Shown in pieces: positions 7,669 through 64,000 of a stretch of DNA of 64,000 bases; the first letter of the stretch is position 1, and every line of letters begins with the position of its first letter. Below the pieces are notes generated by a model, which had not been told where the DNA came from, did not search any database, and saw only the letters and a list, made by a program, of their open reading frames with translations. A program made the position numbers and the translations under genes. Origin of the DNA: Labia minor (taxonomy: Eukaryota; Arthropoda; Insecta; Dermaptera; Spongiphoridae); contig OY720350.1 of the NCBI GenBank assembly GCA_963082975.1, positions 37,058,660 through 37,122,659 on the forward strand. The letters run 5' to 3'.

Positions 7669-7700
<32 letters not shown>

Positions 7701-28700: not shown

Positions 28701-31700
28701 CCTGAATTTGATTGTTTTAATACGTTTGATTCTTACTTGTTGGAAAACAATACTTCAAATAAATTTTAATTTAAAAAAGGAAATTTTAGAACATCTTTCA
28801 AATTTGTCAAGCTCTTTTATAGAGTATTTTCCAAAAAACAAAAACTTTGAAAATGATATGTGGATAGCAGATCCGTTTTCAAAAAATAAAAACTATTCGG
28901 GTTTATCTTCAAAAGAAGAAGAAGAACTGATTGAAATTTGCTACGACACCACATATAAAGAAAAGTTTTCTTGTGTGCCTGATTCGACATTTTGGATTAC
29001 ACTTCAAGAACTTTTTCCAAATGTTGCTAAAAAGGCCATTATACGACTTTTGCCGTTTGTCACTACTTATTTATGTGAAAGCGGCTTTGCAAAATATTGT
29101 GATCAGTGGCGTACCGTGAGGTTCTTGCGCCTGGGGGCAACTGAGAAATCAGCGCCCCCTTTCGTAAATATATATAATTTAATTTTTTTTAAAGAATATT
29201 AATGACGAATAACGAAACAGGTTTAACAGATTTTAATAAGCGTATAAATAATATTTATTGACTTACGCAAAATACAGTTTAACTTTAAATATTAATTCTT
29301 CTTTTGTTCCAAATTGGCTTCCCTAATTTTGCGCCCCCTAAATTTGGCGCCCGGGGACATATGTCCCCCCTGCTCCCCCCTAGTTACGCCACTGATTGTG
29401 ATACAAAAACAAAATAAGTTGACCTGTGGCCAGGTCCGAACCGACCGACGGTTTGAAATAAATTAATTACCAGCTACAGAAACAATTTCAAATAATTTTA
29501 ATATATCTATTAATGTAATAAAAAACAGATAGGCATATAACATAAATATTTTTAATTTTATTTTATTTATAATATATAGCTGAAGTAGCCGTCGTTGCCC
29601 GAGATCATAATAAGGAGGCTGTGACGTCATGAAGGGCTGGGTGACGTCATATAATTTTAAATCAAGAAAAAACTAATAAATATGATTTTCCCGAGGATAA
29701 AAACCAATACAAAGTGTTATGATTCGTGGTGATATATAAAAAAATCTCCTCATGTGAAATTTGGTGTGAAAATAACCCTTCCCTTCCTATCGTCGATCGC
29801 TAATACTACCACTTCCGGTTTCCGGATTTGCACCAAAAGTTGATCAATTCATCCCACTGATGCATTAAGTAATTATACCAAATTTCATCAAAATCGGTTT
29901 AGCCGTTCAGGCTGTACACATCTATACGGACGGACAGACGGACAGACGGACAGACGGACAGACGGGCGGACAGACATCATGCTAAAAATACTTTTTTCTG
30001 TTAAGAAAATGCATGATTCGTGGAGATATGTAAAAATCTCCACATGTGAAATTTGGTGTGAAAACAATACCTCCCTTACAATCGTCGGTCGGTAAAAAAA
30101 AAGAAATAAATTAAACGCATCATAGGAAATTCGATTCTTGGGAACCAATTTATAAAAAAATTGCTGAAAATTTAACACAGCAAGTTTCTCATTAGCAATT
30201 AAATTCATATATTTGTAATTAGTTATTTGTTTATTATATATTTTATATTTATTGTACCATAATTTAATCATGTATTGGCATTTTTCTTTATTGTTTCATT
30301 ATTTTTCACTATTTAACATACATTTATATTTTTTTTTAATTTCACAAAATAAAATTTCAGAAAAGAAAAATCTAGTTATTTTTATTTGAACCTTAATCTT
30401 GCATTTAAAAAAATTAATAGGAAACTAATTACAAAAATATGTAAAACTATGGGGTACGCCTGAAAAAAAGGTTGAGAACCACTGGGTTAAGGTATTCGTT
30501 TGACTTGGAAAGGCACAATTGACTTTGAATTACTTACATGGCTTGTATGAATTGTTTCTTCCTGTAATGGATGGTTGTGTATGTGTAGCTTAGAAAATTC
30601 AAATTAATCCTTACCATTTCCACGTACAAAATAAGTTGTCATGACTAAGTAAATGATCCTTATATAAATATTATATATATATTTAATTTTTTTTTTTTTT
30701 TTTTTAGAAGATGGGAAAATATAAACTAGCACTTAAAGCAGCACTAATAGGATTGATCTATGCAGAAGTAGGAAATGGTTTAATGGAACTTCATTGTAGA
30801 GCACTCTCGAATATAATTGAAGTTTGCACCTATTTAGGAAAAAATTATTATTTATTATTACTATTACGCAAAAAACTTAGAACGGGTATTATTTTAATTG
30901 ATAAAGCAAATTCGGTGGAACCATTGATTGCAATTGGAAGATTTTATTCATCAATGTTTTTAAACAAGTAATCGTTTTAATAAATTTGTATTTAACATAC
31001 AAAAAAAAAACAAGAACTAAGAATGTATTTTTTTTTTTTAGTTTGATTATTGGGGAACTTAAAAAATCTATTGTTATGGCAAATATGACACTGTCAATTT
31101 CAAAGCGTACACCAAGAAATGTTGCTGTACTTATGGTCCTTCCTTTAATGGTCCAAGCAATGGTATGATATAATTATTAACATAAATTTGTGTTGACCAC
31201 ACTTCTATCATTAGAACATCGACATGTCGTGGTTTATTCCCTCTCCCTTCTATCAATTACTGTGTTATTAAATACATAAAAAATCCTCTAATCCAGTGAC
31301 GTACCTAGAGGGGGGCGGTGGGCGGAACTTATTTTGGGGCGGCATTTTTTATATTTAGTTATAGTTGTAAAAAGCAACTTATTCATTTCATATTTATTTT
31401 TTTTTCTTTCTTGAATAATAAATGATTATTATAATTATTATAAGTTTACTATTTGATTTATATAAATTATGATTAACTATATGATTTCGAATATTATTCC
31501 TCGGTGTATATAAATGCATTTTAGTGTAAATTTTGAATTCTAATTCCAAGAACAGGATAATAATTTTATTTTATTGTATTCATTAAAATTCGTTGAATTC
31601 GTAAACGCATCTTTACGATTTTGTTCGGCAATTTTTCCTAACTAAAATTTTTTCATATCAGTTTATAAATGTCATTTCTTTTGACAAGTTTATATGATTA

Positions 31701-36628: not shown

Positions 36629-39600
36629 TTAAATATTGATAACACGAGATAATTTATGTACTCGATTAAGAAGTAAATCGCCTTGTTTTATTGTTGATTG
36701 GTATTGACAATTTTTACTATCGGGACGATTTGTCTCAACAATGCCTCCTACTTTGTCAACTTTGCAGTGAAGTCGCCCAGCAGCAATAAAGCGGCTTAAT
36801 TCAGCATCAATAAATTCAATAGTAACACCAAAAGTTTCTGCCATATATTGGAGGGTTAAAGAGCGATATGATTCCAGCAATTGACTATATGCTAAAATTC
36901 GCATTTCGCGTACATAATAGCGATAATGAGGATGGACAAAAAGATCTTTGCGTAAATTCCCTTCAACACGAGCTAAATGACGGAAAAAATCAGCGTATTG
37001 GCAGTTGTAAAGTGAGAATAGATATTCCTTAACATCTTGATTGTTATGAAGAACTTCAAGAATTTCAGAGCCTTTCACAACTTTATCACGAAGTTCATTT
37101 CTAGGTAAGGCAATCATTGAAATGTATACAGTATATCGAACAAAGGTATTATAATCCATTAATTCATATGATGTAAAAGTAGAAATGGTATCTAGAAAGA
37201 AATTAGCAGCTGCTTTGAAGTCTCTAACGACGATGCAGTACATTCCTTGATAAACCTTAAGACGGTTTCGACGATCCCAATCTCCACCTTCTTCAATAAG
37301 GCTAAAAATAAACAAAATTTTTATTTAGTTAATAACATAAATATTCAACGGAATTTTATACAATTGTTAAATGATAGTCATACTAAAATATTAATAACAC
37401 GAGACAATTAAAAAATAAAAGCCTTGTTTTATTGTGAATTGACAACTTTTAATATCGGGATGATTTTTCTCTATACTACCTATTATTAATTTTTGAATAC
37501 AAATTTAGACTTTCAGGAGGACTAAATTATATATATATGAATTAAAAAAAAACGTCAAATTTAATCAAATAATTAATTTCACTTTAAATCTATTTAATAA
37601 TTTATAATAATTTTGTATGGATAAAAAAAATTATTATAATTTATAAAAGTAAGAATAAATTGAATTACCTTTTAGCTTTATCAATGTTTCTTGTTATTAA
37701 GTCATGATCCAAATAAAAAAGGCCTATTCTAATATTGTGGAAAACAATATCGAGACGATGACCAAGGGAGACAGTTTTATCATAAGATTGGCGAAAAGCA
37801 GTAAGAGCTCCTTCCTGAAATAAAATACAGAAATTAATAAAAATCATAATAATAACAAATGGTGACTAAATTTAAATATATGAAATAAAGTGTGGGGAGA
37901 GTTAGCCAATCATGAAGTTTATGTCAAATTTGACGGATGGATTCGAAGCTGAATTAAATAAAATAAAAAAAAAAAAAATAATAAAAACTACACATTTTGT
38001 TATAACTATATTATTAATTAAAACATACTATTGAAAAAAAAGAAAAATTATTTTATTTATTTTACTTACATATCTAATAATATTTTATCTTTTAATTCTG
38101 TTTAAATGTTAAGAAGCTATTAAGATTATTAATATTATTTATTGAATTATCCAGTGAATTATATTAAAATTAATAAAATATTATAGATGAATACTTTTGA
38201 AACCATAAATAAATTATTTGTACTGGCAGTGATTTGGTTAAATCTTGACATAAAAAATTTGAAAAAAATAAAACATTTTTCTTGTTTGGTATAGAACACG
38301 GATGGCGAACCTTTTTCAATGTCCGTGCCACAAAATTATAAAAAATCTTTTTGAAGTAACTAACGTGCCACAAAATTGTCATTTTTATCTCTACCACCTG
38401 TACCCCTTTTAGCTTGAATATATAATCGAATATTTTTGTATAACTTCTAACTATCCTGTATAAGTGTTATAATTTTAAATATTAAACTTTATTCCAAAAA
38501 AATATAAGTTGACCTGTGGCCAGGTCCGAACCGACCGACTGTTTGAAATAAATTAATTTCCAGCTACAGAAACAATTTCAAATAATTTTAATATATCTAT
38601 TAATGTAATAAAAAACAGATATGGATACATAAATAATAAATATAAATATTTTTAATTTTATTTTATTTATAATATATATGCAAGACCAGGCTGTGACGTC
38701 TTGAATGGCTGGATGACGTCATATAATTTTAAATCAAGAAAAAACTAATAAATATGATTTTTCTCGAGGATAAAACCAATACAAAGTGCATGATTCGTGG
38801 TGATATATAAAAAAATCTCCTTTGGTGTGAAAATAACCCTTTCCTTCCTATCTTCGATCGCTAATACTACCACTTCCGGTTTCCGGAATTGCACCAAAAG
38901 TTGATCAATTCATCCCACTGATGCATTAAGTAAATATACCAAATTTCATCAAAATCGGTTGAGCCGTTCAGGCTGTACACATCTATACGGACGGACGGAC
39001 GGACAGACGGACGGACGGACAGACATCATGCTAAAAATACTTTTTTCTGTTTAGAAAATGCATGATTCGTGGAGATATGTAAAAAACTCCACATGTGAAA
39101 TTTGGTGTGAAAACAATACCTCCCTTACTATCGTCGGTCGGTAAAAATGATTATTAAAATATTTGGAATTTATTTTTGGTAAAAATATATCTTTTCTAAA
39201 AAATTTATTTTTATTTTTATTGTTTGGAAATTCTTTAATTGATTTTAGTTTGTAGTTTTTAGTTGTAGATAATGACAAAAAAGCAAAATTTATATTTGAT
39301 ACCGTGAACCACTTACATTTTCTTGTTTTGATAATGATATGTTAAATTCTAAAAAAAAATTGTGATTCTGGCACTCCAACCGTCCTATGCGTAAAGTAAA
39401 GCTTGATATAAATTTTATAAAATTAATTTTTCTTTTTTTTTTAATAAATATTGATAAAATTTACAGCATATATTAAAATAAGAGCATATAAGAATATTCT
39501 GGTAATAGGCGTATTTATTTCATCGCCCCAATCCATTTTGAGTTTATAATTTCACAATTTCCCAGACAAACAGACAAATAAAGTGACAGACACGAAAAAT

Positions 39601-47048: not shown

Positions 47049-48026
47049 TTAATAAAAAATAAGTGCCTAAAAGAAATTATTAATAAAAAAAAAACGAATT
47101 AACTTTATAAAATAAATTATTAAATGAATTTGTAACACTTGAAAAATTTAAATTTAAATAATTTTATATTATTAACTATATTCTCATGATTGAGATTTTA
47201 CATTTTTTTCTTTTTTTTTTTTTATTAATTTTTTGATTTTATATTTTAGATAATGGATGAAAAAAAATCAAAATATACATTAAAAAATTTAACTATAAAT
47301 TTTCTTAAAAATAAAATGTGTAATATTTTGGAAAAGTCTCAACCTATTTGGAGAAAACAAGAGGCAATAAATTATTTGGAAGAAAATCTTCCCATTGACA
47401 TTCTTAATAAACTTTTCAAGAAAATTCTAAAATCTAATATTAAGCATTCAGAGATGTGTTTAAATAAACATACTCTCGATTTTCAATTATATAATATTTT
47501 TCATAACAAATCATTATTTGAAATACTTAGCAAATGTGAACAATTACAAAGATTACATATAGAATATCACGTACATTTAAATGAAGAATTTTTAATAATG
47601 TTAAATAAATTTAAAAATTTAAAAATTTTCTATATATATGCTGATACAATTAGTCAAGAGGCATTTAAAGATATTATAAATAGCTGTCCTGATCTCGAAA
47701 TATTTATTCTTAGAACATTTAAATTTACCATTGATGAAGATATTAAATCTATCAGAACTAACGAAAATATGAAAATCATTTATTTACGTTTGGTCGACAT
47801 TCCTCCCGAACTTGTTAATGATTTTTTTTTAGCATTTCCAAATTTATTAAAATTAAATTTTCAATCCGACAGTTTTATGGAAAATATTAATCAATATATT
47901 TCAAAAAATTGATTCATTAAAATTGATGGATGTTAATCTCTCAATAAAAAATGTGAATGAAATTAATTCGTTAGTTCGATACTGTCCTAAATTGACTAGG
48001 CTTGACCTATTTTTTACCAAAATAAG

Positions 48027-49306
48027 TTGACCTGTGGCCAGGTCCGAACCGACCGACGGTTTGAAATAAATTAATTTCCAGCTACAGAAACAATTTCAAA
48101 TAATTTTAATATATCTATTAATGTAAAAACAGATATGGATATAACATAAATATTTTTAATTTTATTTTATTTAGCTGAAGTAGCCGGCGTTGCCGGCGTT
48201 ACCCGAGGCTGTGACGTCATGAAGGGCTGGGTGACGTCATATAATTTTAAATTAAGAAAAACATAATGAAGATGATTTTTCCCGAGGATAAAACCAATAC
48301 ATTCGTGGTGATATGTAAAAAAATCTCCTTATGTGAAATTTGGTGCGAAAATAACCCTTCCCTTCTTATCGTCGATCGCTAATACTACCACTTCCGGTAT
48401 CCGGATTTGCACCAAAAGTTGATCAATTCATCCCACTGATGCATTAAGTAAATATACCAAATTTCATCAAAATCCGTTAAGCCGTTCAGGCTGTACACAT
48501 CTATACGGACGGACAGACGGACGGACAGACATCATGCTAAAAATACTTTTTACCGACCGACGATAGTAAGGGAGGTATTGTTTTCACACCAAATTTCACA
48601 TGTGGAGATTTTTACATATCTCCACGAATCATGCATTTTCTAAACAGAAAAAAGTATTTTTAGCATGATGTCTGTCCGTCTGTCCGTCCGTCCGTCTGTC
48701 CGTCCGTCTGTCCGTCCGTATAGATGTGTACAGCCTGAACGGCTCAACCGATTTTGATGAAATTTGGTATATTTACTTAATGAATCAGTGGGATGAATTG
48801 ATCAACTTTTGGTGCAATTCCGGAAACCGGAAGTGGTAGTAATAGCGATCGACGATAGGAAGGAAAGGGTTATTTTCACACCAAAGGAGATTTTTTTATA
48901 TATCACCACGAATCATGCATTTTGTATTGGTTTTATCCTCGAAAAAAATCATATTTATTAGTTTTTTCTTGATTTAAAATTATATGACGTCATCCAGCCA
49001 TGCATGACGTCACAGCCTGGTCTTGCATATATATTATAAATAAAATAAAATTAAAAATGTTTATATTTATTATTTATGTATCCATATCTGTTTTTTATTA
49101 CCTTAATAGATATATTAAAATTATTTGAAATTGTTTCTGTAGCTGGAAATTAATTTATTTCAAACCGTCGGTCGGTTCGGACCTGGCCACAGGTCAACTT
49201 ATTTTTTCTGTTAAGAAAATGCATGATTCGTAGAGATATGTAAAAATCTCCACATGTGAAATTTGGTGTGAAAACAATACCTCCCTTACTATCGTCGGTC
49301 GGTAAA
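48027..49306 (-). mobile_element. HINE-like family A, outer copy A4, split
   Basis: Left part 48027-48547 (hairpin GACCTGTGGCCAGGTC, core, CGGACGGA repeats) and right part about 49202-49306 (CTGTTAAGAAAATGC to CGTCGGTCGGTAAAAA) form one element once the inner copy is removed. It interrupts the leucine-rich gene with AAAATA at both borders. Confidence 0.8.
48548..49197 (+). mobile_element. HINE-like family A, inner copy A5
   Basis: Complete A element in the opposite orientation to its host copy, starting TTTTTACCGACCGACG and ending in the GACCTG/CAGGTC hairpin. It entered a T-run of the outer copy, making a head-to-head palindrome of about 0.5-kb arms. Confidence 0.8.
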
Positions 49307-50664: not shown

Positions 50665-50923
50665 ATAAAATTCTCGTGTCACAAAACTTTGAAATCATAC
50701 TCCTCCGAAACGGCTTGACCGATTCTTATGAAATTTTTTATGTATATTCAGTAGGTCTCAGGGCATGTCAGACTTCCTTTAGAAAACCGCTAATTGGTAA
50801 GGTGTGTCCAGGAAATGCTAATTAATTAAAAATAGTTTAGTTACCATACTAGCTCATAGAGGCGCTGGTGGCAAAAATTTGACATCATATATATATCCTG
50901 ATAGGAGCCTTCAAATATAAGTG
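50665..50923 (+). mobile_element. Repeat with conserved insect core
   Basis: ATAAAATTCTCGTGTCACA, then ACTCCTCCGAAACGGCTTGA and CCGATTCTTATGAAATTTTT, resembles a non-autonomous repeat widespread in insects. The right part merges into the tRNA-like sequence where the LINE inserted. Confidence 0.5.
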
Positions 50924-50940
50924 GTTCGTAGGTGAACAGT
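50924..50940. repeat. LINE target-site duplication, left
   Basis: GTTCGTAGGTGAACAGT. Matches 56385-56401 at 16 of 17 positions. Confidence 0.85.
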
Positions 50941-51032
50941 ATCGTTCTAGCCTCCGAAGAGTAAACTTCATACTCATAACGGACCTCTCTACTAACGACA
51001 CGCCCCCAACTGAGCCAGAGGCCAGTAAGGCC

Positions 51033-52625
51033 TTGGAACCTCCAGCTATCGTAGGCATTGACTCTTTGAAACCAACTAGCCAATTAACTAGCTTCAAAAA
51101 TAGAGCTCAAAAAATAATTAATATTAGAGATATCTCTAAAGAGTCTCTTAAAGAGATTATCTCTAAGTCTAATAAATATCCCTCCTGGCGGCCAGTTATT
51201 AAAAAAAAACCAAATATGTCTAACTCAATTTATAAAAAAAAAATTGATGAACTGAACAGAATTATTGTTTCTCTGAAAGAGCAAATAAAAAAACTCGAGT
51301 CAGAGAACAAAAATTCAATTCAAAACGACACTGGGTCTATTGAAACATCAAACCCCTTTGAAATTCTCACAAATGAGAAGATGGAAACCGACGTAGGCGA
51401 GGGATTCACCACGTTTTCTGGTAAAAGAACCCGAAATTCACCGATGAAAACATCTGCAAAAAAGGCGGCCAAGGAATCTCCGAGCCACCATCCGGTACCA
51501 CCAACACTGCAATTACCTCATCAAGCCCATGAAGACATACAAAATGTTGATGCGACTCCATCTCAACAAATATCAAACTCCAGAGGTGGTAATTATAATA
51601 AACCCCCTCCAATAATTGTGAGTAACGAGGACTCTATCTTTCTCTTAAGACAATTAAGAGAAAGAAAGGCGAATTTCTATATAAATAAAAAGCCATTCAA
51701 ATCCTCAATTTATATTGAGGATTTGGAGACTTATAAAAAATTCCTTAGTCATATTAGAGACCAAAAAATCAAATTTTTCACATTTACCCCAAAGTGTGAA
51801 AAAAACATAACCCTTATTCTTAAAGGTCTAAATAACGGCATAGATGAGGAAATGATTTCTGAGGAAATTGGCAATATTGATAAAAAAAAAATAATAAAAA
51901 TTGTCAAAATCCAAAGACTATCAACTCCCAAGTCTCGCAAAAATAACAGGATCCTCCCACACTTTTTAATTCAATTCACACCCGATAGTAAAATCAGTGA
52001 TATTACTTCTATTAATAAACTTTGCTATCACAAAGTTTATTGGGAAAAAATTCAAAAAAGCAAAGTGACCCAATGCTACAATTGCCAACGATACTCGCAC
52101 ACAGCGAGTAATTGCAATTTGGACTTCCGATGTGTAAAATGTGATAGTGTGCATTCCCCCGGGGAATGCAATTTACTAGCCGAATCTCCTAAAATTGATA
52201 TATATTGTGTTAACTGTAAAAGTAAAGGGCACCCAGCCTCTTATCACGGATGTCCTAAACGAATTGAAATCAACCAGAAAATAATTGATAGACAATTAGA
52301 ACAAAAAAACAATATTCAAAATAAACTAAATTCAATTAAAAGCTTAGTCAGCCCAAACACATCTTATGCAAGTAAAGTAGCAAATGATAACGTTAAAAAA
52401 GGCCACAAATCTAATGGCAATAATAACAATCACATTAATAATAACGATAATAATACTAACTCTAGTCAATCTATCATAAATCCTGTTGTTAACAACGATC
52501 TTTCAGATAGGCTGCAACGAATCGAAGTAAATATGATCAAAATATTGAATGGCCTCCAAACCCACTCAGCTCAAATTAATAATATATCCCAAATATTAAA
52601 TCTTTCACATTCAGACACGATCTAA
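51033..52625 (+). CDS. LINE ORF1 (RNA-binding, zinc knuckles)
   Basis: Open frame of 530 codons. No ATG occurs until 51216 (codon 62), and the frame is also open upstream of 51033, so the real start is uncertain. The N-terminal part has a coiled-coil-like stretch (KIDELNRIIVSLKEQIKKLE) and low-complexity basic and proline-rich segments. A central fold of about 100 residues (NDSIFLLRQLRERKANFY onward) is followed by three CCHC-type zinc knuckles (CYNCQRYSHTASNC, CVKCDSVHSPGEC, CVNCKSKGHPASYHGC) and an Asn-rich tail. This is the standard nucleic-acid chaperone of Jockey/I-type elements. It ends 3 nt after the ORF2 frame begins to be needed (-1 frame overlap). Confidence 0.88.
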   Translation: MEPPAIVGIDSLKPTSQLTSFKNRAQKIINIRDISKESLKEIISKSNKYPSWRPVIKKKPNMSNSIYKKKIDELNRIIVSLKEQIKKLESENKNSIQNDTGSIETSNPFEILTNEKMETDVGEGFTTFSGKRTRNSPMKTSAKKAAKESPSHHPVPPTLQLPHQAHEDIQNVDATPSQQISNSRGGNYNKPPPIIVSNEDSIFLLRQLRERKANFYINKKPFKSSIYIEDLETYKKFLSHIRDQKIKFFTFTPKCEKNITLILKGLNNGIDEEMISEEIGNIDKKKIIKIVKIQRLSTPKSRKNNRILPHFLIQFTPDSKISDITSINKLCYHKVYWEKIQKSKVTQCYNCQRYSHTASNCNLDFRCVKCDSVHSPGECNLLAESPKIDIYCVNCKSKGHPASYHGCPKRIEINQKIIDRQLEQKNNIQNKLNSIKSLVSPNTSYASKVANDNVKKGHKSNGNNNNHINNNDNNTNSSQSIINPVVNNDLSDRLQRIEVNMIKILNGLQTHSAQINNISQILNLSHSDTI

Positions 52626-55600
52626 ACTCTCACAATCTAAAAATTATTTCCTTAAATGTTAATTCCCTCATTTCAATTCAAAAAAAAACTGACCTCTTAC
52701 AAATTATCTCAACTCACAATCCGGATATTCTCATCCTATGCGAGACTAAGCTTAATGTTAAGCACCTTCTTGTATTTCCCAACTATTCGGTCGTGAGAAC
52801 TGATCGACCAGGTGACACATTTGGAGGCGGAACCGCTATCTTAGTAAAAAAAAATATAAAATTCACGGAAATTACTAAATTTAAATTAGTCAACAAATCT
52901 CTTGAATCCACTATTATCAAAATTAAACTTAATTCTACTGAAAATCTCTTTATAATATCAATATATAGTACAAATAGGAATAACAGTAATTTTATTAAAG
53001 AAATTAACACAATCTTTGAATCACTAAATTTTTCGAATTATAAAAACTTCTTTATTATGGCAGGCGACTTTAATGCAAAACATCGTCTCTGGAATAATAA
53101 ATTAAATGATTTTAGAGGAAAAAGCCTTAGAAATTGGTTCACCGAAAACCAAATTAAATTCAGAATGAAATTCGTTTTTTCGGAATTTCCTTCGTATCCC
53201 AGATGCTCTTCATACCTGGATTTAATATTCTTGGATTCGCGTCTCAATATTCTTAACTCATTGAATGAAAATCAACTACCCACTATTAACTTTGATAGTG
53301 ATCATCTTGGCTTATTAGCATTAATTAAAATAGATTTATCCCAACCCAAAAACTTTTTGATTGAGAAATTCAGTACTAAATTTAATTTCAATAAAACCAA
53401 CTGGAATCATTTCCAAGATCTTCTTAACAAAAATATTCCTCTGAACATATCCCAGACAAAAAATCTAAATAATGGTGAAATAGATAGCTCAATAATTCTA
53501 ATCGAAAACCATATACTGAAAGCTCTACACAAATCTACTCCGCCAATTAAATATCAAAATTCAGTTAATAAATATTTAAATAATAAAATTAAAAAATTAA
53601 ATAAAGCAAAAAGCTTTCTCGTTTCACAAATAAATAGTTTCTATAGAAAAAACTTAAACATAAATTCCACTGAATTCAAAGAACTGAAACATCTACTTTC
53701 CCTTACGAGGCAAAAACTTTCCAAAGAATATTCGCTTGCAATAAACAAATATTGGAAAGACAAAATTGAAACTATTCCGTTAAATAACTCCCTCGAGACC
53801 TTCCCTAAAATAAATTCATTATTTAGAAATAAAAATAAAAACTCTTTCCCCAATAAAATAGAAATTGACAAAAACAATTCCGATTTAATAAGAATGGCAA
53901 ATATTAACATACATAAACAAAACAAAAATTCATCTGGAAACTTTGAAATTTTTGACACAAAAGATAAACTTAACATAATAGCCTGCCACTTTTCTCTAAC
54001 CCATAAACAAAACGAAGACATGGGAAAACCAGGTCTCTCTAACATAATAAATTCCAAAATTAACCAACTCAAAGAAAAAATAGTAAGGGACGCTCATAAC
54101 AACAAAACAATAACCACTTTCTCCCATAGCAATAAATCAACATTTCCTACCCAACACCAAGACCCATTCTTAACACAATTCAATGAAGTCAAAAATATTA
54201 TTAGACATCTAAATAATAAAAAGTCGACAGGCCCGGACAAGATACCTAATTGTGCTTTAAAACGCCTGCCAAAGAAAATTATTAAAATATACACGATTAT
54301 ATTCAACAATGCACTTAACAATGGCTACTTTCCTGAAAAATGGAAAAAAGCCAATGTAATTGCTATCCCTAAAAAAGGTAAAAACCCCTCCTCTATGTCA
54401 AACCTTCGTCCGATCAGCCTATTATCTAATGTAGGTAAAATCCTTGAAGTGTTGATAAACAAAAGACTGGTCTCCGCTATGGAAAGTTTAAATGTTCTCC
54501 CAGAATCACAATTCGGGTTTCGCTTTAAACATTCAACAGTACATGCTATTTCGAAACTCACCTCCGATATTTACTGGTCATTAAATAATAATGAAGTAGT
54601 TGCAGCTTGTCTGATCGACGTGGAAAAGGCCTTTGATACTGTATGGCGTGAAGGTCTTATTTACAAAATGTTAACAAAAGGTTTCGATGAAAACCTGATT
54701 AAATTCATTTGGAATATGATCGAAGGAAGATCTTTCGTTACATTTAACAATGACACTGTGTCTTCTATTCAATGCCAAGTCACAAATGGTTTACAACAGG
54801 GTACAATAAACTCGCCAGTATTATTCAACATATTTATTAGCGATATTCTCACTGCATATGGCCTGAACGAAACAAAGGGTAAATATGGAATTGCCTTCGC
54901 AGACGATTTAATCGTCTATCTGTCGGGCACAAAGTCTAAACAACTACAACATGATCTTGAAATCTTAGTAGGCAAAATCTTTTCTTTTTATCATTCTTGG
55001 AAATTAAAAATTAATATCAATAAATGTGAAACTATTCTATTTAGGCCCCTAATTGCTAGATGTAATCATAACACAAAATTAAATTGGAAAAAATTTCAAA
55101 TTAAAATTAACGGACAAAATATTCCACACAAAAGCTTAGTCAAATACTTAGGAGTTTACTTAGACGAACGTCTTCTATTCAATAAACATGTCAAAAACCA
55201 ATTAGATAAAGCTAGATCGGCTTTCATGGGATTAAAAAAGTTATTCTTCTGTCCTTATCTAGACCCAAAATTAAAAATTTTATGTTATAGCTTATTTGTT
55301 CGGCCAATAATTACATACGGATGTTGCATTTGGTTCAACCAAACAGCCTCAGTAATGGAATCAATAAGAAAATTTGAAAGGAGTTGCCTAAGAGCATGTC
55401 TGGGTAAATACAGATCCCCTGAATCAGATTACAAAAAATATTTTAGTAACGAAATAATATACAACTTTTCTAATTTAAACAGAATTGACATATTTATAAT
55501 TAAATTAATCCGCAATTACTTTAGTAAAATAATCAACATTCGAGAAAATAGCTTAATCTACGGGGCTTCATACCCTAACGATATGTACTTTAGGCGAACC

Positions 55601-55846
55601 CTAATTTCAGGCTTTATCCCACCTGAAGCATTCACCTATTTGGACGCAAATGGCTACATCCAGGACTCAAACAAAATTCCAATTATTTATCATATATTTA
55701 GGAAAAGTACTGACCGAAGCATAACTTACGATCCCTTCTTAGATGGAAAAGATCAATATAGATTCTGGCGTTTCAATATGGCAATCTCAAAAAGAGATAA
55801 GAGTGAGAATATCGCGAAAAAAAAATACTGGTGGATTGAAAATTAA
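52619..55846 (+). CDS. LINE ORF2 (endonuclease and reverse transcriptase)
   Basis: Over 1070 codons in the -1 frame relative to ORF1, overlapping its stop. No ATG occurs before the endonuclease domain, so translation by reinitiation or frameshifting is likely. The apurinic-like endonuclease has LNVNSL, LCETKL, AGDFNAKHRLW, YLDLIFL and SDHLGLLAL. The RT has PDKIPNCALKRLP, SNLRPISLLSNVGKILE, SQFGFRFKHST, CLIDVEKAFDTVW, NGLQQGTINSPVLFNIF and FADDLIVY, with catalytic DD at about codons 704-705 counted from 52793. It ends with KKYWWIEN. No in-frame stops, so it may be recently active. Confidence 0.92.
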   Translation, partial: DLNSHNLKIISLNVNSLISIQKKTDLLQIISTHNPDILILCETKLNVKHLLVFPNYSVVRTDRPGDTFGGGTAILVKKNIKFTEITKFKLVNKSLESTIIKIKLNSTENLFIISIYSTNRNNSNFIKEINTIFESLNFSNYKNFFIMAGDFNAKHRLWNNKLNDFRGKSLRNWFTENQIKFRMKFVFSEFPSYPRCSSYLDLIFLDSRLNILNSLNENQLPTINFDSDHLGLLALIKIDLSQPKNFLIEKFSTKFNFNKTNWNHFQDLLNKNIPLNISQTKNLNNGEIDSSIILIENHILKALHKSTPPIKYQNSVNKYLNNKIKKLNKAKSFLVSQINSFYRKNLNINSTEFKELKHLLSLTRQKLSKEYSLAINKYWKDKIETIPLNNSLETFPKINSLFRNKNKNSFPNKIEIDKNNSDLIRMANINIHKQNKNSSGNFEIFDTKDKLNIIACHFSLTHKQNEDMGKPGLSNIINSKINQLKEKIVRDAHNNKTITTFSHSNKSTFPTQHQDPFLTQFNEVKNIIRHLNNKKSTGPDKIPNCALKRLPKKIIKIYTIIFNNALNNGYFPEKWKKANVIAIPKKGKNPSSMSNLRPISLLSNVGKILEVLINKRLVSAMESLNVLPESQFGFRFKHSTVHAISKLTSDIYWSLNNNEVVAACLIDVEKAFDTVWREGLIYKMLTKGFDENLIKFIWNMIEGRSFVTFNNDTVSSIQCQVTNGLQQGTINSPVLFNIFISDILTAYGLNETKGKYGIAFADDLIVYLSGTKSKQLQHDLEILVGKIFSFYHSWKLKININKCETILFRPLIARCNHNTKLNWKKFQIKINGQNIPHKSLVKYLGVYLDERLLFNKHVKNQLDKARSAFMGLKKLFFCPYLDPKLKILCYSLFVRPIITYGCCIWFNQTASVMESIRKFERSCLRACLGKYRSPESDYKKYFSNEIIYNFSNLNRIDIFIIKLIRNYFSKIINIRENSLIYGASYPNDMYFRRTLISGFIPPEAFTYLDANGYIQDSNKIPIIYHIFRKSTDRSITYDPFLDGKDQYRFWRFNMAISKRDKSENIAKKKYWWIEN

Positions 55847-57564: not shown

Positions 57565-57858
57565 TGTAATAGTGGGAAAAATGACCCTTGATCTGGTGAA
57601 GGTGGCTGGCGTTTGCCTGCTGCTGGTTAGACAGACCGAGCTCGGACACTGAGGTGAGAGGAAGGGAACGAAGAGAGTGTGGCCCGAGAAGAAAGAAGAC
57701 TTGTGACTATCTCAATTGAGACTTTTATTTTTTTTAATAATTACTTTTAAGTTGTCATTTATTTTAGAGTTTATAAATGTAATTAAAATTTGGATTCAAA
57801 TAAATCTAAATTATTTTATATTTAATTTGTGATTTAACCAGGGGACAACCCGCTTACA
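57565..57858 (+). repeat. 5' LTR
   Basis: 294 bp, starting TGTAATAGTGGG and ending CCCGCTTACA (TG...CA). A GC-richer first half precedes an AT-rich second half. Confidence 0.9.
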
Positions 57859-57880
57859 ATTTGGTGTCAGGTGTGGGGTG
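57859..57880 (+). promoter_or_regulatory. Probable primer-binding site
   Basis: ATTTGGTGTCAGGTGTGG directly after the LTR. The TGG is the expected complement of a tRNA CCA end; the tRNA was not identified. Confidence 0.55.
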
Positions 57881-57927
57881 AGTTACCTATACTATTCTAC
57901 AATTAGAATAAATTAGGGACCCTTCAT

Positions 57928-57930
<3 letters not shown>

Positions 57931-57970
<40 letters not shown>
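57931..57970. repeat. TA microsatellite in the retrotransposon leader
   Basis: About 20 TA units in the untranslated leader between the 5' LTR and gag. Confidence 0.9.
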
Positions 57971-57974
<4 letters not shown>

Positions 57975-58281
57975 AGAATTTTTAAAATTTATAAAGTTTT
58001 TTTTTCTAAAATGTGTATGTTCAAAGTGCGTATTCATTCAGTTAATCTACTTAAAATTTTTTTCATATAGAAAATAAGTTTTATTTATAAATTTATATAA
58101 TATTATTTATAATAGTAATGTGTATTTATATCTTTAAATAAATATAATATTTGTGTGTGTTTATAAAAATCAATGTTCATGTAAAATATAATTATTTATA
58201 TACCTAGAGTGTAATATTTATATATATTCTATATATATAAGTGGTATTTTTATATTTTATTTTGTTTAATATTATTTAAAA

Positions 58282-59163
58282 ATGACTAATTTAGAAGAAA
58301 AAATTGCAATCTTAGAAGCAGAACTTGCAAAACGACCTACCGCAATTACCGTCAAAGTTGAACGTGAACCTAACTTTACACTCTTAGATCAAATAAAAAC
58401 CTGGGATGGTAAACAATCGTTTGATGAATTTATAACTAGGTTCGAGCAATTATCTCTGCTAGGGAGATGGAGTGATGCTGACAAACTAGTGGTATTAAAA
58501 TTAAAATTAGAAGGAACACCTCTTTTATTTGTTCAGGGGCAATCTAGTGAATTAAATTATGCTGAACTAAAAGCTAAACTTATAAATCGCTTCGGGAATA
58601 AAATTAATAAATTAGATCGAATTAAACAATTAACGGGCTTAAAACAATTACCTTATGAACAAGCTGGGGATTTTTATGATAGGATAAAAGCTGTATTAGA
58701 AAGTGGAGAATCATTTGGATTTACAGTTTTAGAACTTTTCTTAGAGGGACTTGAAGGTGAAGTAGGTAAAACTTTACGAGTATCACCTCCAGAAGATGAA
58801 GAAGAGGCTCTATCACGAGCTAAAAGAATCGAATTCGAAATGGAAAAATTGAGAAAGGAATCGGGTTGTAAAAATCAAGGGGATGATTTATATACAAATA
58901 ATTTTACATACACAAAAAACCAGAGTTGTTTCAATTGTGGAATTAAAGGTCACATGGCTAGACATTGTGCTTCTTCACCATCAAAGGAGATAGTATGTTT
59001 CAAATGCAGAGGAAAGGGTCATTTGGCCAGAAATTGTTCAAATCTCACTACGGAATCTCCTCGCACATCGAGTTCGAGAATTTTTGAATCTAGCACTTCT
59101 CCAAGAATACAAGCGATCAAAGGAGAAAATCGAAAAAGCTTCAGAGAAAAGGGAAACGAATAA
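58282..59163 (+). CDS. gag: Ty3/Gypsy Gag
   Basis: 293 residues from a clear ATG after an AT-rich leader. The N-terminus is a short coiled coil (LEEKIAILEAELAK). A capsid-like retrotransposon_gag region follows (WDGKQSFDEFITRFEQLSLL, LGRWSDADKLVVLKLKLEG, FGNKINKLDRIKQLTGLK). Two CCHC zinc knuckles come at residues 216-229 (CFNCGIKGHMARHC) and 239-252 (CFKCRGKGHLARNC), then a Ser-rich tail. It forms the virus-like particle and packages RNA. Its stop lies 3 nt after a slippery heptamer, so a fraction of ribosomes should shift into pol. Confidence 0.94.
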   Translation: MTNLEEKIAILEAELAKRPTAITVKVEREPNFTLLDQIKTWDGKQSFDEFITRFEQLSLLGRWSDADKLVVLKLKLEGTPLLFVQGQSSELNYAELKAKLINRFGNKINKLDRIKQLTGLKQLPYEQAGDFYDRIKAVLESGESFGFTVLELFLEGLEGEVGKTLRVSPPEDEEEALSRAKRIEFEMEKLRKESGCKNQGDDLYTNNFTYTKNQSCFNCGIKGHMARHCASSPSKEIVCFKCRGKGHLARNCSNLTTESPRTSSSRIFESSTSPRIQAIKGENRKSFREKGNE

Positions 59164-59192
59164 GGATCGAGCAAAGACCTGTTAATCGATCC
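59151..59192 (+). promoter_or_regulatory. Probable -1 ribosomal frameshift signal (gag-pol)
   Basis: GGGAAAC at 59151-59157 is read G-GGA-AAC in the gag frame, a classical slippery heptamer. After a 6-nt spacer comes a perfect 7-bp stem GGATCGA/TCGATCC (59164-59170 and 59186-59192) with a 15-nt loop. Loop bases CCTG (59078+100, i.e. 59178-59181) could pair with CAGG at 59199-59202 as a small pseudoknot. Confidence 0.75.
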
Positions 59193-59234
59193 AAAAATCA
59201 GGGCATAATTATTACAACAGTAACTACCAATAAA

Positions 59235-62200
59235 GTGGGGGATGATAATCGCGTGGGTGCTTTAGTGGGGGATGTATATCGTCGTTTATTAGTTGATACA
59301 GGAGCACAAGTATCAATTTTAAGAGACCCGGTACCCGGCATTCCGATATATCCCTGGTCGGGAGTAGCTAGGGGTATTACTGGAGACCTCCTTAATATAA
59401 TAGGTATTCAAAAGGTAAAAGTAATACTGTGCGGAAAAACATTGCAACATCAATTTATTATTTCCCCTCTGAAAAATGTCGGAGCAGGCCTGATCGGGGC
59501 AGACCTATTAAAGAAAATAGGAGCCACTTTAGATTTTTCTTCTCAAGAATTGCGTTTTAACGAAATTAAAGAAGATAACCAACAAGTGGTTAGTTTGGAA
59601 ACTGACACGAAAAAGGAATATTCAGTGCATTGCCTTGAAAATGTGGAAATTCCTCCTTGGTCAGAAATATTTATTTGGGGTAAAGTTTCAAAATCAAAAA
59701 ATTTAGAAAAAAGAAATCTATTGCTTCAACCTGCCCAAATAGGAGGAGGTGTACGGATTGCTTATTCTATTGGGAGAATCGTCAATGGAATGACACCTAT
59801 TAAAATGATTAATATGACGGGAAAGAAATTAAGAGTAGATAATAAAACTGAAATAGCGGTTGGAGAATTAACTGATGTATTTGAGGTGAATCAAATTAAA
59901 TGGGAAAATGAATGTGAAACAAGTGACTTCAAGGCTATATTAGAAAATAAAATCAAACACTTAACTAAAGAACATAAAAATCAATTAAAGGCATTATTAC
60001 ACGAATATCCAGGGGTTATTTACGACGAAAGTAACAAAAATATTGGATGTGCTTCGGGTGTCATGCACCGTATAATAACTGATTTCTCCCCACCTATTTG
60101 TAAAAAACCATACCGGGTTCCCAATGCGTTGAAAGATGAGATGAGAAATCAAATTAAGGAATTACTGGAAAAGAATATTATACAAGACTCAGACTCACCT
60201 TGGTCAGCGCCCGTGATATTAGTACCTAAAAAGAAAAATGGAGAAATAAAATATCGGTTTTGTACAGATTTTCGATCATTGAATCAAATAACGAAAGTAG
60301 CAAGCTATCCAATACCTAATATAACCGAAACGTTAGAATCACTTGGTAAGGCAAGCCTTTTTACTACCTTAGATCTCGCCAGTGGTTATCATCAAATATT
60401 AGTGGACCCTCGGGATAAGGAGAAGACCGCTTTTTCTACTCCTGAAGGGCACTTTGAATACAATCGCATGCCATTCGGCCTAGCAGGAGCACCGGCGACT
60501 TTTCAAAGGCTGATGGATAGAGTGTTGGCTCATATAAAAGGAGAGGAATGTTTCGTATACTTAGATGATGTTATCATCTTCTCAGACTCATGGAATGAAC
60601 ATCTTGTTCGATTACGAAATGTTTTAAATAGGCTCCAAAAAGCAAATTTAAAATTACAAATATCAAAATGCAACTTTGCAGTCTCCGAAGTAGAATATCT
60701 GGGTCATATTGTTTCTGCCGATGGTATAAAACCGCATCCCAAAAATACAGAAGCAATTAAACTATATTCTCGACCTAAGAATATCAGAGAGGTAAGACAG
60801 TTTTTAGGCCTTTCTGGTTGGTATAGGAGATTTATACCTAGCTATGCTCATATAGCCCGACCATTGACCCAATTAACCAAAAAAGACCAACCGTTTAAAT
60901 GGAATGATGATCAGGAAGTTGCATTTAATAAACTTAAATCTGAATTAATAAAGGATAATGTTTTAATTTATCCAGATTTCAAAGATCCCTTTATTCTCGC
61001 GACAGATGCTTCGGGTAGAGCGATAGGAGCCGTACTTTCTCAACTAAGGAATGGGTATGAAAGACCTGTGGCCTTTGCAAGTAGAAATTTGAATAAGGCA
61101 GAGCAAAACTATTCGGTTACAGAGCAAGAGCTATTAGCGGTAGTATGGGCTACCCAACAATTCAGATGTTATTTATATGGAAGAAAATTTAAATTATTAA
61201 CTGATCATGCAGCATTAAAATGGATGCTAAGCTTAAAAAATGCTTCATCCAGATTAACACGCTGGACCTTAAAGCTAGCAGAATTTAATTATGAAGTTGA
61301 GCATAAAGCAGGAAAATTACATAAAAATGCCGATGCATTGAGTCGTTCGGTTGGAATGGTTGAAATAATTGAATTAAATAATAATCCTACGGAATTAAGA
61401 CAGGCTCAATTGAAAGATATCGACTGCCAATTGATAAAACAACACTTACCTTTTGTAGAGGATGAAAGAGGAATTATATATTTAAAATCAGAAGATGATG
61501 ATGAACCTAAATTAATAGTACCTAAATCATACGTTCTTCAAGTTATTAAAAATCATCATGATCATCCTATGGCAGGTCACCGGGGTATTGAAGCCACACA
61601 AAAACTGATAGAACGTTTATACTTTTGGAAAACACTCAAAAAAGATGTGGAGCAATATGTGAAAACTTGCCGAAGTTGTAATCTGAGAAAATCTCCGGTT
61701 GGTCTAAAAGTACCCATTCAAGAACACGAAGACACCTCTAGACCATTTCAAATGGTAGCAGTTGATATTGTTGGACCGTTACCAACTACAAAAAGAGGAA
61801 ATAAATACATTCTTACCTGTATTGATTATTTTACCAGATACGCTGAAGCAATTCCTCTCCCTAACCAAACAGCGGAGCGTATAGCAAGAGCATTGGTAGA
61901 AAGAGTGATTTGTAGATTTGGGGCTCCTGAAAAGTTGCTAAGTGATAAAGGTAAAAACTTTATGTCAAATCTTCTATCTCACCTTTGTAAGCTATTGGGT
62001 ATAAAGAAAATTAACACTACAGCTTATCACCCGGAATCTAATGGGCGATTAGAAAGATTCCATCGAACACTAATAGACACGATGTCTCATTATGTACGTC
62101 CTGATGGAAGAGATTGGGATCAGTGGCTTCCTCATGCCATGATGGCCTATTGCTCTACTCCACATGGAAGCACAGGTTACTCTCCAAATTTTTTATTATA

Positions 62201-63677
62201 TGGAAGGGAAATAAACTTACCTTGTGCGAACGAATATCGGTATCATTATTCCGATTCCATTAGAGATAAATATATTGAAGATTTAATAAATCGTTTGGAA
62301 AAAGCTTATTATTTATCTCTAAATAAATCCCGCCAAGAGCTGAAACTATCACATAAAAATAAAAATAAAAAAAGAAAAATGCGTCAATTTTTTGAAGGAG
62401 ATTCCGTATTTTTATTAACACCCGCAACGGGTGAAAAACAAGCAAAAAAATTTAATAAACCATGGAAGGGCCCGTATGTAATCGTTTCGGTAAAATCTCC
62501 GGTAGTCTATGAAGTTGCTATCGGACCAAATAAAACTATGAACGTGCATGTTAATCGATTAAAATCGAGCGTATTACCTTCGAAAATAAAAGACAGCGTC
62601 GGATTGGAAGAAGTGGAAGGTAAGCTTATAGAAGCACCAACGAATTTCGCGCTGGGTTATGGAATTGCTGCCGACTTAGTAATGTCACGTGGTATTGCTA
62701 AGGAAATTAAAAGAGTATACCCTCGTCATCCATTAGAAATTAAACCTACTCCCAAAGTAGGTGATACACTTGTTCAGTTTCACCCTGAGAGAATTATCTT
62801 TCATCTAATTTTAAAAGAAACGATAGATGAGAAAGTGAAAATTGAACAACTAAGAAAATGCATCAAATCTATGATAGTCCAGGCTAAAAATCTACGGATA
62901 AAACAAATAGCATTACCTCGCATAGGCTGCGGTTCAGATCGATTAACTTGGGAAAAAGTTAGAGAAATTATTTTAGAAGAAATTAAACATCATTCGATTT
63001 TAATCCGCATTTATACAGAAACCTTAAATGATTTAGAAGAAAATCCTATAGATTCTGAATGTTGGGAGTGTACGAGAGAGACCTTTCCTTATGAAGAACC
63101 AAACATGATACACTCGAAGGAAATGAACACAAATATAGATAATTCCTTTAATCAAGCTCGTTCAACGGATAATATAGAAGAAGTAGCTATAAACGATCCG
63201 ATTCTGAGTAGAGAGGAAAATGAAAATATAGATAATAATGAAACTCAAGTTACCTCTTCGCCTTCAAATAATGGATCCATTTTGACGGAATCAGAGTGGA
63301 CTCCGGAAGGAGAGTCATCTCACCGTGAAAGATCTCCTTATTTCCTTAGAAGTTCTAGAAGGGTGGTTGGGGAAGATTTATGCTCAGAGAATGAGATTGC
63401 AGGAGTAGAAGGAGAGCAAGGAATTGAAAGCACCATCAGAGAAGAGGTAGAAGACAGCTCGAGTCCCTCCATTGAAGATTCTCAATGGATTCCAGGCAGA
63501 AATATCGGTCAAGTTAATAGATCTCCCTATGGGCTAAGAGTTAGGAATACTTTAGGCAATCGTGCTGAAACAGAATTAGCAATGTCAGCTCATTCCATTC
63601 CTCTCGCTGTAGCAAGTGACTGTGAAACAGGAGATAGTTTAACGCAGTGTAATAATAATAGTGGTGATTCTAACTGA
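59235..63677 (+). CDS. pol: Ty3/Gypsy Pol with C-terminal TARG1-like macrodomain
   Basis: 1480 codons counted from 59235; the frame is open upstream to the slippery site, so the product is a Gag-Pol fusion. In order: aspartic protease (DTG at 21-23), reverse transcriptase (YRFCTDFRSLN, YLDD with catalytic Asp at 444-445), RNase H (ATDASG, D591), integrase with HH/CC zinc finger (from about 774) and D844-D904-E940 core, then an integrase tail (WKGPYVIV). Beyond the usual end, residues about 1125-1264 form a macrodomain, and the last 215 residues are acidic and Ser-rich with two copies of RSPY(F/G)LR. All catalytic residues are present and there are no stops, so it may be active. No envelope gene. 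Confidence 0.93.
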   Translation: MGDDNRVGALVGDVYRRLLVDTGAQVSILRDPVPGIPIYPWSGVARGITGDLLNIIGIQKVKVILCGKTLQHQFIISPLKNVGAGLIGADLLKKIGATLDFSSQELRFNEIKEDNQQVVSLETDTKKEYSVHCLENVEIPPWSEIFIWGKVSKSKNLEKRNLLLQPAQIGGGVRIAYSIGRIVNGMTPIKMINMTGKKLRVDNKTEIAVGELTDVFEVNQIKWENECETSDFKAILENKIKHLTKEHKNQLKALLHEYPGVIYDESNKNIGCASGVMHRIITDFSPPICKKPYRVPNALKDEMRNQIKELLEKNIIQDSDSPWSAPVILVPKKKNGEIKYRFCTDFRSLNQITKVASYPIPNITETLESLGKASLFTTLDLASGYHQILVDPRDKEKTAFSTPEGHFEYNRMPFGLAGAPATFQRLMDRVLAHIKGEECFVYLDDVIIFSDSWNEHLVRLRNVLNRLQKANLKLQISKCNFAVSEVEYLGHIVSADGIKPHPKNTEAIKLYSRPKNIREVRQFLGLSGWYRRFIPSYAHIARPLTQLTKKDQPFKWNDDQEVAFNKLKSELIKDNVLIYPDFKDPFILATDASGRAIGAVLSQLRNGYERPVAFASRNLNKAEQNYSVTEQELLAVVWATQQFRCYLYGRKFKLLTDHAALKWMLSLKNASSRLTRWTLKLAEFNYEVEHKAGKLHKNADALSRSVGMVEIIELNNNPTELRQAQLKDIDCQLIKQHLPFVEDERGIIYLKSEDDDEPKLIVPKSYVLQVIKNHHDHPMAGHRGIEATQKLIERLYFWKTLKKDVEQYVKTCRSCNLRKSPVGLKVPIQEHEDTSRPFQMVAVDIVGPLPTTKRGNKYILTCIDYFTRYAEAIPLPNQTAERIARALVERVICRFGAPEKLLSDKGKNFMSNLLSHLCKLLGIKKINTTAYHPESNGRLERFHRTLIDTMSHYVRPDGRDWDQWLPHAMMAYCSTPHGSTGYSPNFLLYGREINLPCANEYRYHYSDSIRDKYIEDLINRLEKAYYLSLNKSRQELKLSHKNKNKKRKMRQFFEGDSVFLLTPATGEKQAKKFNKPWKGPYVIVSVKSPVVYEVAIGPNKTMNVHVNRLKSSVLPSKIKDSVGLEEVEGKLIEAPTNFALGYGIAADLVMSRGIAKEIKRVYPRHPLEIKPTPKVGDTLVQFHPERIIFHLILKETIDEKVKIEQLRKCIKSMIVQAKNLRIKQIALPRIGCGSDRLTWEKVREIILEEIKHHSILIRIYTETLNDLEENPIDSECWECTRETFPYEEPNMIHSKEMNTNIDNSFNQARSTDNIEEVAINDPILSREENENIDNNETQVTSSPSNNGSILTESEWTPEGESSHRERSPYFLRSSRRVVGEDLCSENEIAGVEGEQGIESTIREEVEDSSSPSIEDSQWIPGRNIGQVNRSPYGLRVRNTLGNRAETELAMSAHSIPLAVASDCETGDSLTQCNNNSGDSN
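62607..63026 (+). other. Macrodomain inside Pol (TARG1/OARD1-like)
   Basis: Pol residues about 1125-1264. Visible landmarks are EAPTNFALGYGIAADLVMS (ligand-binding loop), a strand RIIFHLILKE and the signature LPRIGCGSDRLTWEKVREI, ending IRIYTETL. The pattern follows the macrodomain hydrolase TARG1 (OARD1), whose signature reads MPRIGCGLDRLQWENV. The residues aligned with the TARG1 catalytic Lys84 and Asp125 are K1194 and D1235, both kept. Hydrolase activity is inferred only. Confidence 0.85.
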
Positions 63678-63799
63678 GGAAAAGAACTCTCAAACTAACA
63701 TAAACCTCAAGACAGAAGAAAGAAGAGAGATACCGAAGACGGAGGGGTGTTTCGCTAATGTCGAATCGGAGTCCCTTCGCTCTCGCTGATATAAATGAC

Positions 63800-63832
63800 A
63801 AAGATTGTCCAAGAAATTAATGGACAATCTTT
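63800..63832. other. 11-bp perfect hairpin before the polypurine tract
   Basis: AAAGATTGTCC pairs with GGACAATCTTT around an 11-nt loop, between the pol stop and the 3' LTR. Confidence 0.8.
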
Positions 63833-63835
63833 CTT

Positions 63836-63848
63836 AAAGGGAGAACGA
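63836..63848 (+). promoter_or_regulatory. Polypurine tract
   Basis: AAAGGGAGAACGA immediately before the 3' LTR, the expected plus-strand primer. Confidence 0.75.
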
Positions 63849-64000
63849 TGTAATAGTGGGAAAAATGACCCTTGATCTGGTGAAGGTGGCTGGCGTTTGC
63901 CTGCTGCTGGTTAGACAGACCGAGCTCGGACACTGAGGTGAGAGGAAGGGAACGAAGAGAGTGTGGCCCGAGAAGAAAGAAGACTTGTGACTATCTCAAT
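63849..64000 (+). repeat. 3' LTR (cut by the window end)
   Basis: 152 bp identical to 57565-57716. Confidence 0.93.

Follow-up and report, generated by a model that had tools for sequence, protein, structure and literature searches.

We analyzed a 64,000-nucleotide stretch of the genome of the dermapteran insect Labia minor (assembly GCA_963082975.1, contig OY720350.1, positions 37,058,660 to 37,122,659 of the forward strand), hereafter the window, in which positions 57565-64000 (+) form a long terminal repeat (LTR) retrotransposon that is truncated at the window end. On the strength of sequence comparison and structural modelling, we are highly confident that this is a Ty3/Gypsy element whose Pol polyprotein continues past the integrase C-terminal domain into a macrodomain of the TARG1 (ALC1-like) class. 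A sequence-only reading of the window had proposed this fusion and the presence of the TARG1 catalytic Lys and Asp, and both proposals were borne out. Residue numbers of Pol count from a GTG codon at 59235, placing the macrodomain (62607-63026) at residues 1125-1264.

The Pfam profile Macro (PF01661) matched residues 1149-1246 of the whole Pol with 32.1 bits (E 1.2e-7) and the excised piece with 38.3 bits (E 1.4e-9), against a cut-off of 22, and phmmer against the PDB returned 2l8r and 4j5q, which are both C6orf130 (TARG1), each with an E of 3.1e-14. The macrodomain is about 31% identical to TARG1. In the structural model, residues 8-150 of the piece superposed on TARG1 10-152 (VIA) and the fold was closest to TARG1, so that the profile search and the structure comparison proposed in the sequence-only reading both agreed with it; a control model folded from the single sequence without the TARG1 rows was uninformative. 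Numbered within the modelled piece, K1194 is residue 82 and D1235 is residue 123; their TARG1 counterparts in the alignment are K84 and residue 125. K84 is the catalytic lysine of TARG1 (PMC8501950). The second residue of the dyad is given as Glu125 in a review (PMC7050489); the human TARG1 sequence in the PDB match has Asp at this position. The Pfam domain order of Pol, protease, reverse transcriptase (RT), RNase H and integrase (IN) followed by Macro, begins with the order of Ty3/Gypsy (Metaviridae) elements, and the best solved relative of the integrase was Ty3 (7q5b, phmmer E 1.2e-27), while the C-terminal integrase piece searched alone gave no PDB match at an E of 1.

The integrase, the macrodomain and the Pol tail share one uninterrupted frame, within the Pol open reading frame (ORF) at 59235-63677 (+) with its 1480 open codons. 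A stop-free run of 140 codons would arise by chance with a probability of about 1e-5 at the local base composition, and the lack of stops over the macrodomain and all of Pol behind it with one of about 4e-13 at the base composition of the macrodomain. The GC content at third codon positions (GC3) is 0.236 in the macrodomain and 0.239 in the integrase, indicating that the join is not obviously fresh. The LTR segments had been described as identical, and this held for the visible stretch, in which 152 of 152 nt agree, with only 152 of the 294 nt of the 3' LTR, and none of its 3' flank, lying inside the window. That the structure is an accident, whether a one-off fusion, a passenger or an assembly join of a retroelement and an unrelated gene, appears very unlikely given the single frame, the GC3 agreement and the enclosure of the macrodomain by the identical LTR stretches, albeit the element is known from one copy within one 64-kb window and our limited-reach searches recovered no second copy or relative.

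The search for elsewhere-occurring copies of the fusion, also suggested in the sequence-only reading, covered protein and contig sets within this limited reach. A protein search with Pol as the length frame and words from residues 1113-1280 gave 317 candidates, none at an E of 1e-3, and one with the macrodomain piece alone gave 26 candidates and no relatives; these negatives are weak because shared 5-residue words were required. Scans of viral_contigs with single proteins (the macrodomain alone and the RT piece), which have only close relatives within reach, and of genome_contigs with an integrase plus macrodomain query likewise recovered no relatives. With a query of two aligned rows, one of them human TARG1, there were 3812 matches; the named ones among the best 120 of the 3812 are nearly all vertebrate, so that no insect TARG1 was seen there. 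The animal set comprised 41 of these 120, which were aligned (P0090, P0093 and P0105 being animal by likeness only). The alignment A2 query recovered 86 relatives from viral_contigs and at least 111 from genome_contigs, with 80 kept from each, and the RT, IN, gag and tail pieces of the window matched ORFs of at least 90 amino acids at none of the 160 loci carrying these macrodomain relatives (E 1e-3).

Against the macrodomain of the element, the best and median scores were 72.4 and 62.3 bits for animal TARG1, 61.4 and 43.4 for viral-contig and 62.6 and 47.7 for bacterial relatives, a ranking that leans to an animal donor, among relatives that had been chosen using TARG1 in the query. A first tree had 145 rows, made up of the macrodomain from the window, the 41 animal rows and 103 of the 159 locus matches above 60 bits (80 viral-contig and 23 bacterial). 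In this tree the domain sat on a very long branch (6.15) beside two long-branch bacterial rows at weak support (77/75); we judged this grouping an artefact. A second tree of 104 rows left out 14 named rows, identical repeats and roughly half the rows for animals; constraining the domain to the animals lowered the log-likelihood by 19.8 and was not rejected (p-AU 0.286), which does not imply a clade. The macrodomain is thus unplaced in the tree despite its best scores being with animal TARG1s. The earlier proposal of a captured host hydrolase is plausible on the scores, but is held back by the branch length and the lack of a placement.

Conservation was counted over the 144 relatives (41 animal, 80 viral-contig and 23 bacterial). 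The dyad Lys and Asp are each present in 142/144 and W1239 in 144/144, and the element keeps K1194, D1235, the GCG (1231-1233) and W1239. The retention of these residues argues against the explanation that the pocket was repurposed, in which the ADP-ribose activity would be lost and the fold would survive as a C-terminal scaffold of the integrase or to bind a different ligand, be it another nucleotide, DNA or RNA. We regard this as improbable, even though several observations point toward it, including the long branch. The GDL loop of TARG1 reads GKL in the element, and K1130 is an unusual ligand-loop residue matched by none of the 138 lettered rows, which have D (110), N (22), S (5) or G (1); this residue also counts against an active hydrolase. 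In addition, MGAGIA of TARG1 is MSRGIA, and 16 of the 38 columns that are invariant in the 41 mostly vertebrate animal rows are lost, compared to 22/38 kept there and 31/111 kept in the other columns. An Asp or Asn in the GDL loop is common in the TARG1-like class and is not known to be essential, and we did not use it for exclusion. In another macrodomain the GDL-type Asp contacts adenine through its main chain (PMC5413906), and Pro occupies its position in trypanosomatid macrodomains, suggesting that Lys at 1130 need not abolish binding.

The macrodomain stands directly behind the integrase C-terminal domain. The integrase aligned to Ty3 (HMMER) up to Pol 1103, equivalent to Ty3 polyprotein residue 1433, and we take the Ty3 integrase to start at polyprotein residue 1012. 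The SH3 fold of Ty3 integrase spans residues 369-433 and its chromodomain 446-511 (PMC8632968). If this start holds, a chromodomain would be predicted to begin near Pol 1127. The first macrodomain strand in the model is at Pol 1124, close to this position, so the alignment and the model place the macrodomain in the chromodomain slot. On this evidence it fills the place held by the chromodomain in Ty3 and chromoviruses, and is new there as far as we searched. Chromo was not among the nine Pfam families matched in Pol (E 0.01), a result that a vestigial chromodomain elsewhere could escape. We did not assign the element to the chromovirus branch, as the expected chromodomain place is taken by the macrodomain and Pol has no Chromo match at this threshold.

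This position and the missing Chromo match speak for our second-ranked explanation, in which the macrodomain is a reader. By binding ADP-ribose marks carried by chromatin, it would direct the integrase toward damaged or poly(ADP-ribosyl)ated sites, much as the integrases of chromoviruses are guided to chromatin marks by their chromodomains. Integrases with a chromodomain at the C-terminus have been described (PMC2774666), and the ALC1-like class includes readers besides erasers (PMC7050489). We nevertheless think a reader rather unlikely, as both the Lys and the Asp are kept, which a pure reader could dispense with, and K1130 may weaken adenine binding.

We tentatively favor an ADP-ribosyl hydrolase tethered to the integrase and acting at integration, and give it first rank for the retention of both dyad residues and for the substrate range of TARG1. 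That enzyme acts on MARylated proteins and O-acyl-ADP-ribose esters, on ADP-ribose attached to the ends of nucleic acids (PMC7050489) and on thymidine adducts (PMC8501950). We infer its activity, its attachment to the integrase and its action in the nucleus. The macrodomain would be produced with Pol via -1 frameshifting, packaged, and carried into the nucleus with the cDNA while still attached to the integrase. Nicks and gaps of integration would wake host nuclear ADP-ribosyltransferases (PARP1-like), which would place ADP-ribose on the integrase, chromatin proteins or DNA ends. By stripping it through the Lys/acid chemistry of TARG1, the macrodomain would let integration and gap repair proceed. 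A catalytic-looking macrodomain on a Ty3/Gypsy integrase would in this way tie integration to host ADP-ribosylation. A broader proposal, which we hold to be possible but doubtful, is that the integrase exchanged its chromodomain for an ADP-ribose module, with host poly(ADP-ribosyl)ation serving as an integration address or as a switch turned off after strand transfer. If true, retrotransposon targeting would here be coupled to chromatin in a new way.

The sequence-only reading had instead suggested protection of the particle from host PARPs, which stands as one reading among several. A hydrolase that shielded the particle, or proteins of the virus, against antiviral PARPs would resemble the role proposed for RNA-virus macrodomains (PMC7729036, PMC9503650), and the dyad is kept. 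Among viruses, the top structural matches (BFVD) included Kadipiro virus VP8 and proteins of thrips flavi-, negev- and virga-like viruses, suggesting that TARG1-like macrodomains may be common in insect-linked RNA viruses. This reading is weakened by reports that mosquito genomes lack antiviral PARPs and that alphaviruses restricted to insects no longer have the catalytic residues of their macrodomain (PMC7729036). The macrodomain is moreover fused to the integrase and not to Gag, and we consider a shield against antiviral PARPs likewise improbable. The location directly behind the integrase C-terminal domain suggests the integration step at least equally.

The features of the element are collected in Table 1. 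The putative primer binding site TGGTGTCAGGTGTGGGG is similar to a sequence complementary to the 3' end of a tRNA-Leu. Retrotrans_gag matched the gag ORF with 18.4 bits, under the Pfam cut-off of 24.1. The GTG used as the Pol start is mechanical and probably not the true pol start: the frame is open upstream of it, in the -1 frame, and overlaps gag (stop at 59161). GGGAAAC is a slippery heptamer, and the final gag codons AAG GGA AAC GAA TAA put G GGA AAC in phase for a -1 slip. Pol is therefore probably made through -1 frameshifting at this site. The heptamer is not rare in the window (3 observed vs 4.7 expected), and the RNA fold 3' of it was no better than shuffles (z -0.94; 35/200 equally good). 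The two motif copies of the Pol tail, SEWTPEG...RSPYFLR and SQWIPGR...RSPYGLR, look like a repeated linear binding motif, and positions 63075-63674 of the tail had no NCBIfam match at an E of 0.01. By reading, a perfect 11-bp inverted repeat (AAAGATTGTCC / GGACAATCTTT, 11-nt loop) lies at 63800-63832 immediately 5' of the polypurine tract, a possible RNA hairpin near the 3' end of the element.

Table 1. Features of the LTR retrotransposon, in window coordinates
Feature	Position	Strand	Evidence and remarks
5' LTR (TG...CA), 294 nt	57565..57858	+	152-nt repeat shared with 3' LTR; 3' end taken, by reading, as the CA ahead of the primer site
Putative primer binding site TGGTGTCAGGTGTGGGG	57862..57878	+	Position by reading
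gag ORF, two CCHC knuckles	58282..59163	+	Pfam zf-CCHC E 1.3e-9, 2 stretches
GGGAAAC heptamer, candidate -1 frameshift site	59151..59157	+	Falls in the gag phase as G GGA AAC
pol reading frame	59094..63677	+	Open from 59094; first GTG 59235
Aspartyl protease	59265..59531	+	PF00077 E 7.6e-5, Pol 11-99
Reverse transcriptase	60228..60713	+	PF00078 E 7e-35, Pol 332-493
RNase H	60975..61286	+	PF17917 E 1.1e-40, Pol 581-684
Integrase: H2C2 zinc domain, rve core, C-terminal piece	61518..62564	+	PF17921, PF00665, PF22938 (p58_C); SH3/GPY-F by reading
TARG1-like macrodomain	62607..63026	+	Pol 1125-1264; K1194 and D1235 as TARG1 dyad; K1130 instead of GDL Asp
Acidic, low-complexity Pol tail	63027..63674	+	By reading; W-x-P ... 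RSPYxLR motif twice
Putative polypurine tract AAAGGGAGAA	63836..63845	+	By reading
3' LTR, partial (152/294 nt inside window)	63849..64000	+	Repeat of 5' LTR

Just upstream of the element, two long ORFs (50883-52625 and 52583-55846) resemble ORF1 (CCHC) and ORF2 (endonuclease and FADD reverse transcriptase) of a long interspersed nuclear element; the first had no Pfam match at 1e-3. Five tRNA-Lys (TTT) genes (6920-6992, 7874-7946, 23779-23851, 24707-24779 and 27044-27116) lie inside repeats, of which 6707-8042 and 23574-24878 are 86% alike, representing a tRNA cluster or tRNA-carrying repeats. A large palindromic repeat at 48019-49205, 79% self-complementary over 1.27 kb, is like a miniature inverted-repeat transposable element, with arm copies 84-96% alike at 4771-5418, 29406-30098 and 38496-39147. 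The window also holds an exon of the host gene for the 26S proteasome subunit RPN7/PSMD6 (36632-37324, -; Pfam E 7.9e-28), a mariner-like ORF with a Pfam match slightly under the cut-off, and an ORF read as ionotropic-receptor-like, with no Pfam match. The proteasome exon marks the window as eukaryotic, and the other two ORFs point to an arthropod.

Macrodomains were previously known as tools of RNA viruses and of phages, and fish retroviruses carry them in additional ORFs. As in the sequence-only reading, they are not known as a standard part of Ty3/Gypsy Pol: the available portions of the open-access literature searched name no such case, and the term 'macro domain' is absent from PMC8672886 (zebrafish endogenous retroviruses) and PMC2774666 (LTR elements). 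Extra domains are described for complex fungal elements (PMC3248453), where the excerpts do not mention 'macro', and a survey of NAD/ADP-ribose systems across 21,191 viral proteomes (PMC9503650) lacks the words Metaviridae and Ortervirales and any beginning with retrotranspos-. Fish epsilon-like endogenous retroviruses bear macro-domain ORFs (Basta et al. 2009 as cited in PMC4977317); they are also LTR retroelements, but belong to Retroviridae and carry additional ORFs rather than a Pol fusion. We rejected such a retrovirus as the identity of our element, since its macrodomain is fused to Pol and its integrase is closest to Ty3 among solved structures. The macrodomain of the DarG antitoxin shares the class and the catalytic Lys, in a bacterial toxin-antitoxin context, and lacks the acidic dyad residue according to a review (PMC7050489); the NCBIfam DarG profile matched our macrodomain at an E of 1.6e-10, with 40.8 bits vs a cut-off of 250. 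RNA-virus macrodomains likewise lie inside polyproteins, but of viruses without an integrase. Characterised RNA-virus macrodomains are mostly MacroD-like. Unlike TARG1 itself (OARD1), the macrodomain of the element, with the GKL and MSRGIA changes, is part of a retroelement Pol. Ty3 and chromovirus integrases likewise have an extra folded module directly after the integrase C-terminal domain, a chromodomain with a methyl-lysine ligand, whereas the ligand of the macrodomain would be ADP-ribose. Domain capture behind a Ty3/Gypsy integrase is thus of a known kind and, as far as we searched, the macrodomain is new to that place.
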